From: Planctomycetota bacterium
GTDB taxonomy: Bacteria; Planctomycetota; UBA1135; GCA-002686595
NCBI GenBank assembly: GCA_014238415.1
Contig: JABABA010000002.1
Coordinates: 1 to 64,000 of the forward strand
Direction of reading: 5' to 3'
DNA length: 64,000 nucleotides
Shown here: piece after piece, positions 1,180-27,102 of the stretch
How positions within the stretch are numbered: the stretch's first letter is position 1
How the letters are laid out: each line of letters begins with the position of its first letter
Position numbers and translations under genes: made by a program
The notes under the pieces: generated by a model
What the model saw: only the letters and a program-made list of their open reading frames with translations
Told to the model about the DNA's origin: nothing
The model's database searches: none

Positions 1180-2889
1180 CTAGTCCAATGACACCTCTGA
1201 AGAATGCACTGGCAGACACATCTCGTCGTCGCAGGCCTGAAAATGCATGGAAACCTTGAGCCCTGGCGTAGATGCCTCCAGCAAGCGCACTTCGCAGGTA
1301 AACTTCGCCTGATCTACATACCAACTGACCTGCGGATTGTTGAAATCGGGAACCGATACGGAACTGCACTTCCAGGGACTCACCATCTCGACCCCCGCAG
1401 GCAAGGTCAAGGCGGGATGCACCAGCGTGTACTCGCTTTCCTTGGGCAATTCAGCGTAGACGTGCCACCCCGAGTCGATGGTCAGACTGGCCTCAATTGA
1501 AAGGCGTCTGGGGTCCCCCTCGATGGGAGTCGAAACCACTTTGAGGATCGTGGGCCCGAACTCCTGCGTACCTTGACGCTGACTGCCAGCTTCTAGAGTG
1601 GAAGCGCCTGTCTTCTTGCCTGGGGCAATCCCCAAGCAAAGCCAAACCCAACCGTGCGTGACCGACTTCTTGCGATCAAAGCTCGACCAGGTCTTGGCAA
1701 CAGGACCGAGAGCCTTGCGTGCGGCCCCCATGGCATCGATCACCTCTTGTGGAATGCCGCCGGGCTTACCCACATACTTGTTGCGTTCCTTGACCGCAGC
1801 GGAATAGTCGTCATTCAAGCGATCGTAGGTTGGCTTGAGTGCACGCTTCTCGGCCTCCTGTTTTTCCGTCAATGGAGGTAGTTGCCTGTAGAGCCATTGC
1901 ACATCACCGATCAGAAGGTCCAGTTGGCCATCATTGTTCCAATCTGTGACGCTGACCTTGGTACGCGATCCCGGTGCCACGGGGCCGTCCTCCTCAGAAC
2001 GCTCTTCAAAAGGAGACTCAGGCACCAAGACCTCTTGTTCCCCGTAGATTGGGTGGTTGTTCTCACCCAAGTTGCGGTACCAGTATGCACCGCCATGCTC
2101 GGATCCCACGAGCAAGTCCTGGACTCCATCCCCGTCCCAATCCGCATGATGAGCGTTTGAGCCCTTGACCTTCTTCCCTGACACTGTGCGCAGGGGAGTG
2201 GTCTTCACGGCCCAGAGCGGCGCTTGCCTGGTACCCTCGTTGACCACCAACTGAACTCCGCTCATGCGCGTACCAATGACAAGATCCAGGTCGCCGTCGC
2301 CGTCATAGTCCACCGCCTCGGGGGTCACAGACATGCCCACTTCCAATGGGTCACCCTCGCGATTCAGCAAGAAACGCCCCTGGGCAAAAGACATCCCTCC
2401 GGCTCCCTCAAACAGATAGATCTCACCGGTATAGGAACCGGAGAGAATATCCAGGTCGCCATCACCATCGTAGTCCACAAACTGTGGAACAAAGGAGATG
2501 CATCAGGTGGTGGGGATGCTGGCGAATTCCTTTCCCGCTCGCAGGTATTCGAAGTCGCTGTATTCGGGAGCGCTGTTCGTCCCCAGGTTGCGGTAGATAC
2601 GCAACTTGCCCTCGGCAAAACCGGAGCTCCACTTCTTGCGCACGCCTGCGGGCAACCTCTCGGGGGAAAACTTGCCCCTGCCAAACTCTCCCACCAGCAG
2701 GTCTCGTCGGCCGTCCCCATCAAAATCCATCACCAGGGGCGCCGCATGCCCAACGGTCACATCGATCGCAGTATCCCCGCCGAGAATCCGTACAGGAGAA
2801 GCCAACCTTGGCCGAGCGTCTGCCGGCTCATCCTGTGGAAGAGGTGACAGTGAGAGTGCAGCTAGAGAGACCCAGATGAGGTTCGTCAT
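1180..2889 (-). CDS. Candidate selenoprotein: secreted FG-GAP/VCBS repeat protein with C-terminal DsbD-alpha-like domain (UGA readthrough at 2503-2505)
   Basis: One frame of 570 codons is interrupted only by TGA at 2505-2503. Translation stays in the same frame on both sides, reading ...FASIPTT-(UGA)-C-ISFVPQFVDYDGDGD. Read as selenocysteine, the product has a signal peptide (1 to about 22), five DxDGDG calcium-type FG-GAP repeats (one before and four after the UGA), a helical insertion (about 330-400) and a C-terminal domain (about 455-569) resembling the N-terminal domain of DsbD, with the Cys pair CDDEMC (553, 558). Sec would be residue 129, next to Cys130. A SECIS-like hairpin follows the UGA. 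The start chosen is ATG 2887-2889, 7 nt after a TAGTAT box; an in-frame ATG at 2898 is the alternative. TGA is an ordinary stop in neighbouring genes, so it is not generally reassigned. Alternatives are a nonsense mutation or a sequencing error from a Cys codon. Confidence 0.72.
2473..2490 (-). promoter_or_regulatory. Bacterial SECIS-like hairpin downstream of in-frame UGA
   Basis: Counting the U of the UGA as 1, G16-C33 and U17-A32 pair, U18 is bulged, bases 19-23 (CCACA) pair with 27-31 (UGUGG), and the apical loop is G24-U25-U26. The E. coli fdhF element has a bulged U at 17 or 18 and essential G23-U24 in the loop, so both geometry and spacing agree within one nucleotide. A G at the first loop position fits the published bacterial SECIS consensus. 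The hairpin lies in coding sequence, as is normal for bacteria. Confidence 0.65.
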
Positions 2890-5743: not shown

Positions 5744-8371
5744 ATGCGACAAGTTTCTGCGAAGAGCCGAGCCAAGGGCCAAAAGGCCACCATGATGGAC
5801 CAATTCCAGGCGGCCAAGCGTGAGCAACCGGATGCCCTGTTGTTCTTCCGCATGGGAGACTTTTATGAACTCTTCGGGGCCGACGCAGAAATCGCCTCTC
5901 GAGAACTCGGCATAACCCTTACCTCGCGCTCAAAGGGCACAAAGGACGCTCTGGCCATGGCCGGGATGCCGATCAAAGCCCACGAAGCGTACCTCATGAA
6001 GCTGGTCTCCAAGGGCTTCAAGGTGGCGATCTGCGAGCAGATGGAAGACCCCAAGACGGTCAAGGGAATCGTCAAGCGCAGCATCGTGAGAGTGGTCACG
6101 CCTGGCACGATCACAGAAGAGAACGCCCTCGACGCCCGAGCCAGCAACTACCTAGCTTGTGTCTCGGCACAAGCTGAAGGACTGGGCCTGGTCTGGACCG
6201 ACATCTCCACCGGACGCTTCATGGCAGAAGAGATCCCAGTGGATGTCCTGGAAGATGAATTGATTCGCATCAGTCCCGCAGAACTGGTCATGGCCGAGGG
6301 CTTAATCGATCAGTTTCCCGAAGTCTCTGCGATCATCGACCGAGTACAGGGGTCCCGCACAACGGAACGCCCCCCTTGGCGCTTCGAAAGCGGTGCGGCG
6401 ATGCGTGCCTGCCAGGATCACTTCAAGGTCAAGACGCTGGAGGGGTTTGGATTCGAAGATGACTCTCCGGCGATCCCGGCGGCTGGTGCTCTGATCGAAT
6501 ACCTGAACGAAACTCAGCGCGGATCTTGTGAGCATATCCTGAAACTAGAGCGGGTCGAGAACGGATCGCACCTGATCCTGGATGCAGCTACCCAAACTAC
6601 CCTGGAATTGGTCCTCACCCAACGCGACGCTCGCCGAGAAGGCACATTGCTGGAAGCCATTGACCGCACCCTGACCTCCATGGGTGGCCGCCTGCTGAGG
6701 GATTGGGTGCTTTCACCTCTGCGTGAAGTTGATGCCATCACTGCGCGACAGATGGGCCTCGAAGAATTCGTCGAGCAGCCCTTCCTGCGGGAGGAAGTGC
6801 GCGACCTGTTAAGAGATGTTCTGGATGTAGAACGTCTGGTGGCCAAGCTGGCAACTGGACGCGCCAACGCCCGAGATCTTCTGGCTCTGGCCCGTTCTCT
6901 GGCGGTTGTACAGCCCCTGCGCAAGATCCTGGACCGGGTCTATTCAAAAACCTTGGGCGACTTGCACACTGCTCTCGATCCGATCGAGACCGAAGTTCAG
7001 CGCGTACTGGATTCTCTGACGGACAATCCTCCGCACGGCCTGCGTGAGGGCGGATTGATCCGCGAAGGAGTCAATACCGAACTCGACCAACTGCGCTGTG
7101 ATGCGGGTGATGGCAAGGCCTGGATGGCGCGTTTCCAAAGCGAGGAAGCCGAGCGCTCGGGACTCCCAGGTCTCAAGATCGGCTACACCAGCGTTTTTGG
7201 CTATTACATCGAGATCCCACGGGCTCAGGCCAAGAACGCTCCGGTCAACTACACCCGCAAGCAGACCCTCAAGAACGCCGAGCGCTTCATCACTCCGGAA
7301 TTGAAGGAATACGAAGAAAGGGTGCTGGGCGCTGAGGAGCGCTCCCATGCCCTGGAGGAGAAGATCTTCGGAGAACTACGCGATTCCATGAGCACGGTCA
7401 TTCCGCGAATCCTGACCACAGCCCGTGCCCTGGCCAAGATCGATGTGCTTGCTGGACTTGCCCAGACCGCTGCGGAACAACACTACGTCAGACCAACCAT
7501 AGACAACGGTGAAAGTATCGTCATCCGGGATGGCCGGCATCCCGTGATCGAACAACACTTGGACGGAGAACCCTTCGTCCCAAACGACACCACCCTCAAT
7601 CGGGGCAACTGCTCCCTGGGGCTGATCACCGGTCCCAATATGTCGGGCAAGAGCACATATATCCGCCAGACCGCACTGATCGTCCTAATGGCCCAGATCG
7701 GGTCCTTCGTGCCAGCGGGCAAGGCACGGGTTGGCGTGGTGGACCGCATTTTCACCAGACTGGGTTCTGCCGATGATCTGTCCCGAGGCGCGTCTACATT
7801 CATGGTCGAGATGGTGGAAATCGCCAACATCATGAACAACGCCAGTCCACGCAGTCTGGTGGTACTCGACGAAGTGGGGCGCGGAACCAGCACCTATGAC
7901 GGACTCGCTCTGGCATGGGCGATCGTGGAACACTTATCCCAGGAGCTACAGGCACGGACGCTCTTTGCCACCCACTACCACCAGTTGACCTCCCTGGCAG
8001 ATTCGATAACAGGCGTTCACAACCTGAATGTTTCCGTACGCGAGTGGGGCGAAGAGATTGTCTTTCTGCACAAAATCGTGGAAGGCGGTACGGATCGCTC
8101 CTACGGGATCCATGTAGCGCGACTGGCGGGAGTGCCCGCTCTGCTTGTGGACCGTGCGCGCGATATCCTTCGCCAACTGGAAGCGGGTTCCAGTGAGGGG
8201 CCGAGAGTAACTTCTTCCCGAAACGGATCCGCAACGGAACCGGGGTCCCAGCTGGGCCTGTTCGATTTGGAACCAAGTCCCGTGGAGGTTGCTATCAGGA
8301 AGCTCGATTTGGACGAGTTGTCTCCAATTGATGCGCTCTTGGAGTTGCGAGGGTTGAAGGATCTTCTCTAG
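5744..8371 (+). CDS. mutS: DNA mismatch repair protein MutS
   Basis: At 875 residues this is a full-length MutS. The N-terminal mismatch-recognition domain carries the hallmark LLFFRMGDFYELFG (about 36-46), whose Phe and Glu contact the mismatch. Connector, lever and clamp domains follow, then the ATPase with Walker A GPNMSGKST (630-638), STFMVEM and the Walker B VVLDEVGRGTST, and the composite-site motif ATHYHQL. MutS recognises base mismatches and small loops and recruits MutL. The C-terminal tail (about 800-875) is variable. No mutL is in the window. The next gene, a TPR lipoprotein, begins 13 nt downstream, but a shared function is not evident. Confidence 0.97.
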   Translation: MRQVSAKSRAKGQKATMMDQFQAAKREQPDALLFFRMGDFYELFGADAEIASRELGITLTSRSKGTKDALAMAGMPIKAHEAYLMKLVSKGFKVAICEQMEDPKTVKGIVKRSIVRVVTPGTITEENALDARASNYLACVSAQAEGLGLVWTDISTGRFMAEEIPVDVLEDELIRISPAELVMAEGLIDQFPEVSAIIDRVQGSRTTERPPWRFESGAAMRACQDHFKVKTLEGFGFEDDSPAIPAAGALIEYLNETQRGSCEHILKLERVENGSHLILDAATQTTLELVLTQRDARREGTLLEAIDRTLTSMGGRLLRDWVLSPLREVDAITARQMGLEEFVEQPFLREEVRDLLRDVLDVERLVAKLATGRANARDLLALARSLAVVQPLRKILDRVYSKTLGDLHTALDPIETEVQRVLDSLTDNPPHGLREGGLIREGVNTELDQLRCDAGDGKAWMARFQSEEAERSGLPGLKIGYTSVFGYYIEIPRAQAKNAPVNYTRKQTLKNAERFITPELKEYEERVLGAEERSHALEEKIFGELRDSMSTVIPRILTTARALAKIDVLAGLAQTAAEQHYVRPTIDNGESIVIRDGRHPVIEQHLDGEPFVPNDTTLNRGNCSLGLITGPNMSGKSTYIRQTALIVLMAQIGSFVPAGKARVGVVDRIFTRLGSADDLSRGASTFMVEMVEIANIMNNASPRSLVVLDEVGRGTSTYDGLALAWAIVEHLSQELQARTLFATHYHQLTSLADSITGVHNLNVSVREWGEEIVFLHKIVEGGTDRSYGIHVARLAGVPALLVDRARDILRQLEAGSSEGPRVTSSRNGSATEPGSQLGLFDLEPSPVEVAIRKLDLDELSPIDALLELRGLKDLL

Positions 8372-11534: not shown

Positions 11535-13208
11535 ATGCACTCTTCTCAGCTGATCTGTAGCCTCGTGACTGTTCTCTACGTCACAAGCTGTTCCGATTCC
11601 CCATCCTCGACGCCGGTTCCAAAAACCCAACAGATCTGGTTCGAGGAAGTGCGAGAGGCCTCTGGAGTAGACTTTGTACACAGCCTGGGGTCCAAGCAAC
11701 GATTCTGGATCCCGGAAGTCACCGGCAGCGGTCTGGCGCTTTTCGATGCAGACGGAGATCAGGACCTGGATATGTTCCTTGTCCAAGGAGCTGACCTGAT
11801 CGGTGAAGGGGGGCCCGCAAGCAGTGACGAGTTATGGCTCAATCATGGGGACGGCACATTCACAAACGCCACCGAAGCTGCAGGCATCTCTGAGTCCAGC
11901 TTTGGCATGGGCTGCGCAGTTGGCGATTACGATGGAGACGGTGACCTGGACCTCTATGTAACCAACATGGGCCCGAATGTCCTCCTACGCAATCGAGGCG
12001 ACGCCACCTTCGAAGATGTCGCCAAGGAAGCAGGAGTCGCCCACAAATCCTGGGGAACAAGTGCTGCCTTTCTGGACTATGACGGGGACGGGGACCTTGA
12101 CCTCTTCGTGACCAACTACCTGCGCTGGAACAGCGACAGCGAAGTGCCCTGCAAAAGCAAACTCGGCTCTCCGGACTACTGCCATCCGAACAATTACGAC
12201 GCGCCTGATGCAGACGCCCTCTTCGAGAACCAAGGTGACGGAACGTTTCGCGACATCAGTGCCTCTTCGGGCGTGGCAGAGGTGTTCGGCAATGGGTTGG
12301 GCGTAGCGTGGGGAGACATGACCGGCGATGGCTTGATCGATATCTATGTGGCCAATGACGGCATGGCCAATCAACTATGGGTCAATCAAGGCCAGGGCAA
12401 GTTTCAAGATCGCGCCCTCCTCAAGGGTTGCGCCCTCTCTGGAGAAGGCAAGGCTGAAGCGGGTATGGGAGTGATTTTCGAAGATCTCAACGGAGACCTG
12501 AGACCCGATCTCTTCGTTACCCACCTGCGCGCTGAAACCAATACTTTCTACAGCAGCGGGAGGCGGCGGTTTTCCGATGACACGCGCAAGACCGGCACGG
12601 CACAAGCCAGCACTCTGGTGACTGGCTTCGGTACAGGTGCAGCAGACTTTGATCAGGATGGAGTGCTCGACATCTATGTGACCAACGGTCGCGTGGGGGA
12701 CGCCATGCCGCGTTTCTCTGATGAACGACCCCTGGCTGAACCCGACCAGGTGTTTGTAGGAACCGGAGGTGGCGTGTTTGAGGAACTGCAACCCCGTGGA
12801 GGCATTGCAAATGACTTCTTCTCCGTGGGTCGCGGAATGGCTCTGGGCGACATCGACGGGGACGGGGACATCGATGTGGTGCTACAAGACAACTCTGCCA
12901 GCGTACGGATCCTGCGCAACGTAGCCCCCAAGAAGGGAAGCTGGATCATGTACGACGTACGCACGGCCACCGGCGGTCAGGCTCTTGGCGCGAGGGTCAA
13001 GCTGACCCAAGGGGATCTTGTACAAGCACGCCAGGTGCAGAGCGCCTACAGCTACTGCTCCAGCGGTGACCCGAGGGTGCACTTTGGATTGGGGGCTGGT
13101 AGCGGCCCTCTTCAAGTGGAAGTCACCTGGCTGGATGGAACCCAAGAGCACTTCAACGGGTTGGCAGCGGAACAGGTCCACCAACTCATACGCGGCCAAG
13201 GGCAATAG
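11535..13208 (+). CDS. CRTAC1 family lipoprotein with FG-GAP repeats and ASPIC/UnbV domain
   Basis: A signal with lipobox YVTSC starts this 557-residue secreted protein. Seven calcium-loop FG-GAP/VCBS motifs are visible (DADGDQDLD, DYDGDGDLD twice, DMTGDGLID, DLNGDLRPD, DFDQDGVLD, DIDGDGDID), predicting a seven-bladed propeller. The C-terminal about 90 residues (GARVKLTQGDL...SAYSYCSSGDPRVHFGLG...VEVTWLDGTQEHF) match the ASPIC/UnbV domain. CRTAC1-type proteins are often encoded beside TPR proteins in planctomycetes and acidobacteria, as here. Their molecular role is not established; extracellular binding is the usual suggestion. Confidence 0.88.
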   Translation: MHSSQLICSLVTVLYVTSCSDSPSSTPVPKTQQIWFEEVREASGVDFVHSLGSKQRFWIPEVTGSGLALFDADGDQDLDMFLVQGADLIGEGGPASSDELWLNHGDGTFTNATEAAGISESSFGMGCAVGDYDGDGDLDLYVTNMGPNVLLRNRGDATFEDVAKEAGVAHKSWGTSAAFLDYDGDGDLDLFVTNYLRWNSDSEVPCKSKLGSPDYCHPNNYDAPDADALFENQGDGTFRDISASSGVAEVFGNGLGVAWGDMTGDGLIDIYVANDGMANQLWVNQGQGKFQDRALLKGCALSGEGKAEAGMGVIFEDLNGDLRPDLFVTHLRAETNTFYSSGRRRFSDDTRKTGTAQASTLVTGFGTGAADFDQDGVLDIYVTNGRVGDAMPRFSDERPLAEPDQVFVGTGGGVFEELQPRGGIANDFFSVGRGMALGDIDGDGDIDVVLQDNSASVRILRNVAPKKGSWIMYDVRTATGGQALGARVKLTQGDLVQARQVQSAYSYCSSGDPRVHFGLGAGSGPLQVEVTWLDGTQEHFNGLAAEQVHQLIRGQGQ

Positions 13209-25065: not shown

Positions 25066-25404
25066 TGCTATTGCTGCTGACTTCAGTTCACAACTAAATG
25101 TTCAATATCCCGCGGTTCACTAAAAAATCAATGTGGAATGGCAGCCTACAGCATCCTTTCAATGTGACACTTGCAGATCCATAAGATTGTCGTGATCCTA
25201 TCTGGGGCAGCGAGTAACCGGCGGGAAATTGGACATGTATCAAAGCGTGACAATCTGGAGGGGATCAAGGTCCATTGACGCGTGGGCGGGGGATGGGTTC
25301 CCAATATGAGACTGAGCCTCTTCGCAGAACGGCAATTCTCCGCGGAAGACTTAGTGTCAGGGTGTCCTCTCATCCTGCCAACCCAAGCGCAATGCTCTCC
25401 GCTA
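25066..25404. other. Intergenic region, no gene recognised
   Basis: Divergent spacer between the beta-propeller lipoprotein and the FG-GAP gene. The frame of the FG-GAP gene stays open back to 25282 but carries no signal peptide before 25405. No strong hairpin, tRNA or clear promoter is visible. Confidence 0.4.
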
Positions 25405-27102
25405 ATGACTCCCTTCCGCTCTTCTTTCATTGGTTCTACCCTTCTGCCTGCCACGACAGCTCTCCTGCTCAGTAACCTCAGCGGAGCACAAGTCGAACTC
25501 AAATGCCTAGTCGGCGATACCCTGGGTGACACCCACGGTTGGTCCGTTTCTGGCGTTGGAGACATAAATGGTGACGGCCACGACGATGTAGTTGTTGGGG
25601 CACCTGGGGTTGGTACAGGCAGCATGGACTGGACAGGTGCCGCAATTGTCTACTGCGGCCTCTCCGGCACCGAAATTCTGACCATCGAAGGCGAAGCATC
25701 CATGGATTTCTTTGGCTTCTCGGTTGCTGGTCCCGGCGATCTCAATGGTGATGGCATACCGGATATCGCGGTGGGTGCCTACCGCTGCGATGCAGGCGCG
25801 GTGGACGCGGGCAAGGTTTCGGCCTATTCGGGATCCGATGGAGCATTACTCTATCAAGTGAGTGGCGATGCTGCTGGTGACCTACTGGGACACGACCTTG
25901 CCAGCCTGGGAGATGTGAACGGCGATGGCGTAAGCGACCTCGCGATTGGTGTGCCCGGTTCAAATTCAAATGGAAACGATGCAGGTCTTGCTCGAGTGAT
26001 TTCTGGAGCGAATGGCGCAGTGCTATTTGATGTGGCGGGCAATCACTCCAACGCACAACTTGGCTTTGGGATCGGCGCTGCAAAGGATGTAAACGGAGAT
26101 GGAATTCCCGATCTGATTGCAGGTGCTCCCTTCGAGTTGAATGGCGTCGACACTCCGGGTGCCGCTCATGTCTTCTCGGGTATCAACGGCGCCCTGCTCA
26201 TGAGTCTGACCTACGATGAAGACGGCGCCCAGTACGGCTTCTCCGTGGCAGGCCTGGGCGACCTTAATGGCGATGGTCGTAGCGAATTGATTGTAGGTGC
26301 CCCCAAGTCAAAGAACGAACGCGGCGAGGCCTTTGTCTACAACGGGGCGAATGGCTCGGAGATCCATGCCTTCGAGGGAGAAGCAAACCTGAACTGGCTA
26401 GGAGACGCAGTGGGAACACCAGGCGATGTGAACGGCGATGGAGTACCCGACATTATCTTCTCTTCAATCCGCGACTACACCAATGGTCTGGTCGCTGGGA
26501 AAGTCACTATCCACTCGGGTGCCAACGGTACCGAGTTGATGGCATACCACGGAGAAGTGGGCTCCTACACCGGAGAATCAGTGGCAGCTTGCGGCGATAC
26601 AAACGGTGATGGTGTGGACGACTTTATCGTGGGTAGTAGGCGTGGCGCCGGTAATCATGGCACTGCCCTGATCATGACCCTGACTGGATGCACAGCCCCT
26701 ACAAACTATTGCGACCCCCTTCCTAACTCGACCGGCGTTCCCGCTTCGATCAACTGGGAGGGCTCTACAAGTATCAGTGCCGGCAATTTCATCCTCAAAG
26801 CTGACAACGGGCCCATTGGACAAGCGGGAATCTTCTTCTACGGTCATGGTCAGGCGACTAACCCGTTTGGAGGGGGAATCGTCTGCATTGATGGCGCTGC
26901 GGGTCTTTGGCGAGTTACACCGGCCCTTGTTTTCAGTACCGGAGGAGGCTGTAGCCACGCGTTGGACTTCAGCAACCCCCCCGCTCCCGGGGGCCTGATC
27001 CAGCCGGGATCCAGTTGGAACTTCCAATTCTGGTACCGCGATCCCGCCAGCGGAAACGGCTTCAACTTTACCGATGCTCTCAGCGTGAACTTCTGTCCTT
27101 GA
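25405..27102 (+). CDS. Secreted FG-GAP repeat protein with planctomycete-type C-terminal domain
   Basis: ATG 25405 gives a signal peptide (FIGSTLLPATTALLLSNLSGAQ). Seven integrin-alpha-like FG-GAP blades follow, each with D-x-NGDG (DINGDGHDD, DLNGDGIPD, DVNGDGVSD, DVNGDGIPD, DLNGDGRSE, DVNGDGVPD, DTNGDGVDD) followed by VGAP-like strands. Residues about 425-565 form a separate beta domain with NYCDPLPNSTG at its start and WNFQFWYRDPA...GFNFTDALSVNF at its end; I associate it with marine planctomycete secreted proteins. Likely extracellular or surface bound. Function unknown. It converges on the next gene with 9 nt between stops. Confidence 0.85.
   Translation: MTPFRSSFIGSTLLPATTALLLSNLSGAQVELKCLVGDTLGDTHGWSVSGVGDINGDGHDDVVVGAPGVGTGSMDWTGAAIVYCGLSGTEILTIEGEASMDFFGFSVAGPGDLNGDGIPDIAVGAYRCDAGAVDAGKVSAYSGSDGALLYQVSGDAAGDLLGHDLASLGDVNGDGVSDLAIGVPGSNSNGNDAGLARVISGANGAVLFDVAGNHSNAQLGFGIGAAKDVNGDGIPDLIAGAPFELNGVDTPGAAHVFSGINGALLMSLTYDEDGAQYGFSVAGLGDLNGDGRSELIVGAPKSKNERGEAFVYNGANGSEIHAFEGEANLNWLGDAVGTPGDVNGDGVPDIIFSSIRDYTNGLVAGKVTIHSGANGTELMAYHGEVGSYTGESVAACGDTNGDGVDDFIVGSRRGAGNHGTALIMTLTGCTAPTNYCDPLPNSTGVPASINWEGSTSISAGNFILKADNGPIGQAGIFFYGHGQATNPFGGGIVCIDGAAGLWRVTPALVFSTGGGCSHALDFSNPPAPGGLIQPGSSWNFQFWYRDPASGNGFNFTDALSVNFCP

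Follow-up and report, generated by a model that had tools for sequence, protein, structure and literature searches.

The window, by which we mean the whole 64,000-nucleotide stretch analysed, corresponds to contig C22 of a 3.74 Mb assembly that is 88.9% complete and whose relatives are Planctomycetota. On its minus strand lies a frame (2889-1180) whose sole internal stop is a TGA at 2505-2503, at residue 129, followed by TGC; around this codon the frame reads ...FASIPTT-U-C-ISFVPQFVDYDGDGD... The features of the gene are collected in Table 1, and an alternative upstream ATG, at 2898, is possible as its start. A sequence-only reading of this DNA had described a frame interrupted only by the TGA, with FG-GAP coding on either side and a DsbD-like domain. 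Both points were borne out: the same frame runs through, Pfam repeats flank the TGA, and Pfam places a DsbD_N match at residues 464-566. The hydrophobic stretch at the N-terminus is, by its sequence, a probable signal peptide. Two more FG-GAP proteins are encoded in the window (11535-13208 and 25282-27102), both without the Sec-Cys motif.

Table 1. Features of the predicted selenoprotein gene, in window coordinates.
Feature	Position	Strand	Evidence or remark
Predicted selenoprotein gene	1180..2889	-	569 residues, Sec at 129; first ATG taken as start
N-terminal hydrophobic stretch, probable signal peptide	2830..2889	-	Sequence MTNLIWVSLAALSLSPLPQDEP; homologues start similarly
FG-GAP beta-propeller, five FG-GAP motifs, helical hairpin ahead of closing strand	1630..2808	-	Pfam, AlphaFold2, PDB matches
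UGA codon, predicted to be read as selenocysteine (Sec129), Cys130 directly after	2503..2505	-	Homologue conservation
Bacterial SECIS hairpin	2473..2490	-	Covariation, slide test, synonymous codon skew, folds, PMC13188914 Fig. 2 rules
DsbD_N-like domain, residues 464-566	1192..1500	-	PF11412, Foldseek
Cys553-x4-Cys558 (CDDEMC) in DsbD_N-like domain	1216..1233	-	C-x4-C kept in alignment A3

The larger part of the protein is a propeller. FG-GAP_3 is matched with an E-value of 1.6e-23 (83.5 bits, against a Pfam cut-off of 26.9), and an AlphaFold2 model built with 40 sequences has a mean pLDDT of 90.2. The PDB entries matched by the propeller body are integrin alpha, BBS/BBSome propellers and ITFG2, with integrin alpha V and BBS propellers at the top in Foldseek. 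The tail domain scores 25.7 bits against PF11412, for which the cut-off is 25, and matches the N-terminal domain of Neisseria DsbD (6dps) in Foldseek. The C-x4-C of this domain is present in the window protein and kept in the orthologues that bear DsbD_N; in E. coli DsbD the corresponding cysteines are spaced C-x5-C. In the model, residues 129-130 fall between strands 125-127 and 136-138, in a loop that would lead into the second blade. The active site of propeller enzymes usually lies on one particular face, and the Sec129/Cys130 loop is probably on that face. His48, Arg309 and Lys311 looked like active-site partners in the window's subfamily, an idea that was rejected, as the NW-UC and VW-UC subfamilies do not retain His48.

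We found that the TGA is widely conserved. When 61 relatives were searched, two congeneric orthologues came up at 93% identity, along with three at 55-57% and more distant genes at 38-43%; each of these genes has one TGA, and in every one of the 30 loci of this search except L031 the TGA stands at the motif U-C-[ITV]-[GS]-x-x-[PSL]-Q-x-[VA]-D. Altogether, a TGA in the same column occurs in about 124 distinct homologous gene stretches that share the motif U-C-x5-[PS]-Q-x-[VA]-D. Retention of TGA at the residue-129 column over 38-93% identity is far beyond chance. The assemblies are independent of one another and include a complete genome, that of Pla163 (CP036290.1); because the codon recurs in so many distinct stretches of independent assemblies, it is not a sequencing error. 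A profile of the UC-motif region (A1, E ≤ 1e-10), run over 392 Planctomycetota genomes, matched 114 of them, at least 92 with TGA.

Counting the best domains above 60 bits, the residue pair at this site is Sec-Cys in 144, Cys-Cys in nine, Sec-Asp in one and something else in five; these counts are redundant, being taken over all loci fetched, and the distinct UC stretches number 124. The five others carry neither Sec-x nor Cys-Cys. Homologues without Sec mostly have Cys at residue 129, as in the nine Cys-Cys genes. The earlier suggestion that related planctomycete proteins often have Cys-Cys here therefore stands in part: such homologues exist, but they are a minority, and most relatives have Sec-Cys. 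The Sec-Asp gene (L074, TGA at locus position 6115) has an intact SECIS, which indicates that Cys130 is not strictly required.

The hairpin with a bulged U that had been proposed just downstream of the TGA folds, covaries and is under strong synonymous-codon selection. Numbering the U of UGA as 0, the element at 2490-2473 consists of a G15-C32 pair, a bulged U16 and a UCCAC/GUGGA stem around an AGUUU loop. Across the family, positions 16-21 pair with 27-32 around a loop AGUUN, and 92.3% of stem cells pair in 112 distinct elements, as against 29-47% after sliding the partner. At column pair 20-28, 83 elements have A-U, 21 have G-C, five G-U and three C-U, and none of 10,000 shuffles was as good; p-values for the SECIS ignore relatedness, and the argument rests on how large the effect is and how many lineages show it. 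Column 20 falls on the third base of a Pro/Ser codon and column 28 on the second base of a Val/Ala codon, and a Val-to-Ala replacement in the protein is accordingly accompanied by a synonymous switch from CCA to CCG.

Codon choice within the stem is equally skewed. The Val codon is GTG in 103 of 103 cases, compared with 37% elsewhere in the same genes, and the Val/Ala codon is mixed in the other blades of these genes. The stem Pro codon is CCA in 81 of 109 (against 8%), and the codon preceding it ends in T for 32 of 34 Gly, 27 of 30 Thr and 19 of 22 Ser, where 8-13% would be expected. Published rules for bSECIS elements give a stem of 4-16 bp, a loop of 3-9 nt that has a G among its first two nucleotides, a spacing of 16-37 nt and an MFE ≤ -7.5 (PMC13188914 Fig. 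2). The element here falls within them, with a stem of 5-6 bp, the loop AGUUN, 19 nt from the UGA to the loop, and a folding energy of -7.6 kcal/mol (39 nt) or -13.2 kcal/mol (45 nt), with z = -2.4.

The selenocysteine machinery, which the sequence-only reading had named as a check, is complete in the window's own genome. A tRNA-Sec (73.7 bits; anticodon TCA by ARAGORN), selA (449.6 bits) and selD (331.9 bits) lie within about 5.5 kb of one another on contig C17, and selB (344.5 bits) is on contig C20. The selD gene of this genome (L173:7903-8967, contig C17) is a selenoprotein gene itself, with one in-frame TGA. SelA exceeds the cut-off in 239 of the 392 sampled Planctomycetota genomes. Of the 92 TGA hosts, 89 have the selA gene, as against 150 of the 300 remaining genomes (Fisher p = 5e-19, relatedness ignored); the three TGA hosts in which selA was not detected are MAGs with a completeness of 77-82%. 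All 13 further hosts of the Sec form, from Verrucomicrobia, Armatimonadota, Bacteroidales and planctomycetes, have selA.

The Cys forms show the opposite association, with eight of the nine Cys-Cys genes found in genomes without SelA over the cut-off. Six come from one genus, whose genomes are mostly single-contig and give weak SelA-like matches far below the cut-off; the host genomes of two others, L069 and L103, likewise have no SelA over it. One gene (L144, genome G241) has the Cys-Cys form in a genome with selA. To explain the Cys label on a gene tree of 131 rows takes at least four changes, every one of them imposed by branches with good support, from which it follows that the Cys forms arose separately. 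Repeated Sec/Cys exchange is a classical mark of a selenoprotein site, and that, read from the gene sequences, is the pattern of the Cys label on this tree. The Cys forms mostly have GTC or GTT at the SECIS Val codon, which breaks the stem, and the hairpin is lost. One Cys-Cys group (L158-L163) carries an additional Cys-Cys (KHCCPVVADW) at the corresponding site of a different blade, where some Sec relatives have HC or CA; it is possibly a second ligand site.

Taken together, the conservation of the TGA, the covariation of the SECIS, the Sec machinery and its co-occurrence with the gene, and the appearance of Cys forms where selA is mostly missing argue that the TGA at 2505-2503 almost certainly encodes selenocysteine, as had been proposed. 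We considered that the codon might be a real stop, resulting from a nonsense mutation or an assembly error or separating two proteins, since a mechanical frame of 432 aa does begin at GTG 2478. A protein restarted there would be without the signal peptide and the first blade, and the TGA recurs across independent assemblies and subfamilies together with a covarying SECIS and the Sec machinery. As far as sequence can show, a stop, pseudogene or assembly error is ruled out by this recurrence and covariation, and we give it next to no probability. Just as negligible is the chance that TGA is read as another amino acid through a general code change or a suppressor tRNA, a reading that has the open frame in its favour and nothing more. 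Read-through is confined to one position, a tRNA-Sec (TCA) is present, and TGA is the true terminator of many homologues; as the same genes also use TGA as a stop, a code change is ruled out.

The family is spread broadly over Planctomycetota, and members are also found in Verrucomicrobia (L064, L067, L068, L070), Armatimonadota (L073, L076, L082) and one Bacteroidales MAG that carries eight genes or more (loci L086, L092, L093, L095, L101 and L105). Pla163, which we take to be Rohdeia mirabilis, has two or more UC genes next to each other, besides other matches; as it is cultured and its complete genome has several copies, selenium labelling is directly feasible. A search of the plasmid collection gave one distant match only, covering half of the query.

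Several members carry additional domains. The DsbD_N-like domain with C-x4-C is found in the window protein and its orthologues, and L005, L007 and L053 have an extra C-terminal peroxiredoxin of the BCP/AhpC-TSA type with a TGA at the peroxidatic position (STPG/GTPG-U-TAQ). The peroxiredoxin Sec would be U670 in L007 and U665 in L005 and L053, making these double selenoproteins. L006:271-3186 (minus strand) encodes a tandem double propeller of 972 residues, with Sec-Cys at U130 and U653 and a DsbD_N between; L048 is a tandem double propeller of the same kind. Among 90 flanking proteins from about 37 loci we found no recurrent partner gene; three of the proteins, outside the 18 that were inspected individually, match DsbD_N. 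Four of the 90 match pyridoxamine-phosphate oxidase; they come from flanks of the L051-L058 clade, where they are probably encoded directly upstream of the UC genes in L051, L054, L057 and L058.

What might the selenocysteine do? We think it probable that the gene product is a selenoprotein, secreted or periplasmic, in which Sec is decoded via the hairpin and Sec129-Cys130 forms a redox pair re-reduced by a DsbD-type relay. SelB and tRNA-Sec would decode the UGA through the downstream hairpin, and the exported product would present Sec129 and Cys130 in the loop entering the second propeller blade. There the two residues would act as a selenol/selenenylsulfide pair that reduces an oxidised substrate (a peroxide, disulfide or sulfoxide) and would then be re-reduced by the DsbD-type relay; in the window orthologue the electrons are probably carried by the DsbD_N-like domain fused to the propeller, which has the C-x4-C. 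We infer the catalysis, the substrate and the electron path from domain fusions and conservation, and the redox role in particular mainly from the fusions to DsbD_N and the Sec-peroxiredoxin.

Two non-catalytic roles would leave the protein a true selenoprotein. Vicinal disulfides lie close to the active site in the propeller methanol dehydrogenases, and FG-GAP propellers of solved structure (integrins, PVL lectin) mostly bind; both points would suit a substrate-binding or structural role, with a vicinal selenenylsulfide stiffening the mouth loop of a binding propeller. Such a role has difficulty explaining why costly Sec and the constraint of a SECIS are borne by more than 100 genes, and in L074 Sec is retained while Cys130 is lost; we consider it quite improbable. 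Alternatively, the pair might coordinate soft metals or metalloids (Cu, Hg, As, Cd) at the mouth of the propeller, which could serve to bind, sense or detoxify them. Adjacent Cys-Sec pairs are known in proposed metal-binding selenoproteins (PMC13188914), and the planctomycete Cys-Cys group has its second Cys-Cys in another blade, but the fusion partners, DsbD_N and Sec-peroxiredoxin, are redox rather than metal domains, and no metal-resistance genes stood out among the flanking proteins. This reading has some plausibility but is unlikely. On balance we favour a catalytic redox centre: the Sec-Cys at the mouth of the FG-GAP propeller would probably be that of a new propeller selenoenzyme superfamily, expanded in Planctomycetota and with members in Verrucomicrobiota, Armatimonadota and Bacteroidota as well.

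A selenoprotein family of this architecture is very likely undescribed. Among the 119 prokaryotic selenoprotein families and subfamilies tabulated in a 2026 review (PMC13188914 Table 1, with sources that include Haft & Gwadz 2023, Haft & Tolstoy 2025 and Deng et al. 2026), we found no FG-GAP/VCBS propeller entry. No NCBIfam model (r20, June 2026) scored above its cut-off, with sub-threshold noise only. We found no paper linking selenoproteins to FG-GAP/VCBS propellers in substance, and the literature on selenocysteine and beta-propellers concerned unrelated topics only, among the matches listed. Gene callers end a frame at TGA, so that databases probably contain the members as broken FG-GAP/VCBS fragments, and many such annotations would need correcting. 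If our reading is right, a Sec active site would here be described for the first time on a secreted FG-GAP beta-propeller, and some members would be double selenoproteins with propeller and peroxiredoxin Sec centres in one chain. The family would also help to account for the retention of the Sec machinery in Planctomycetota. Catalogued bacterial selenoproteins with a known role are mostly thioredoxin-fold or metalloenzyme proteins, and a large secreted propeller family would broaden the known uses of selenocysteine.

Compared with known systems, the window protein shares with other FG-GAP/VCBS propellers (integrin alpha, CRTAC1, ITFG2, PVL lectin; PF13517, PF01839) the D-x-[DN]-x-DG repeat and the predicted fold. 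It differs from them in having about five FG-GAP motifs and a nearly invariant Sec-Cys ahead of the second; Sec is not known in those propellers. With the catalogued selenoproteins it has in common a UGA with an in-frame bSECIS, the Sec machinery and Cys homologues, and the closest motifs among them are CU and GxUC, which occur in small Fe-S or metal proteins (PMC13188914 Table 1). The tail resembles the N-terminal domain of DsbD (PF11412), its Cys pair kept as C-x4-C, but is fused to a propeller and comes without the membrane and thioredoxin parts of DsbD. The Sec-peroxiredoxins (BCP/AhpC-TSA, T-x-x-U) correspond to the fused C-terminal domain of L005, L007 and L053, with Sec at the peroxidatic position; in these orthologues, however, that domain sits behind the propeller Sec site, whereas the window protein has the propeller site without a peroxiredoxin.
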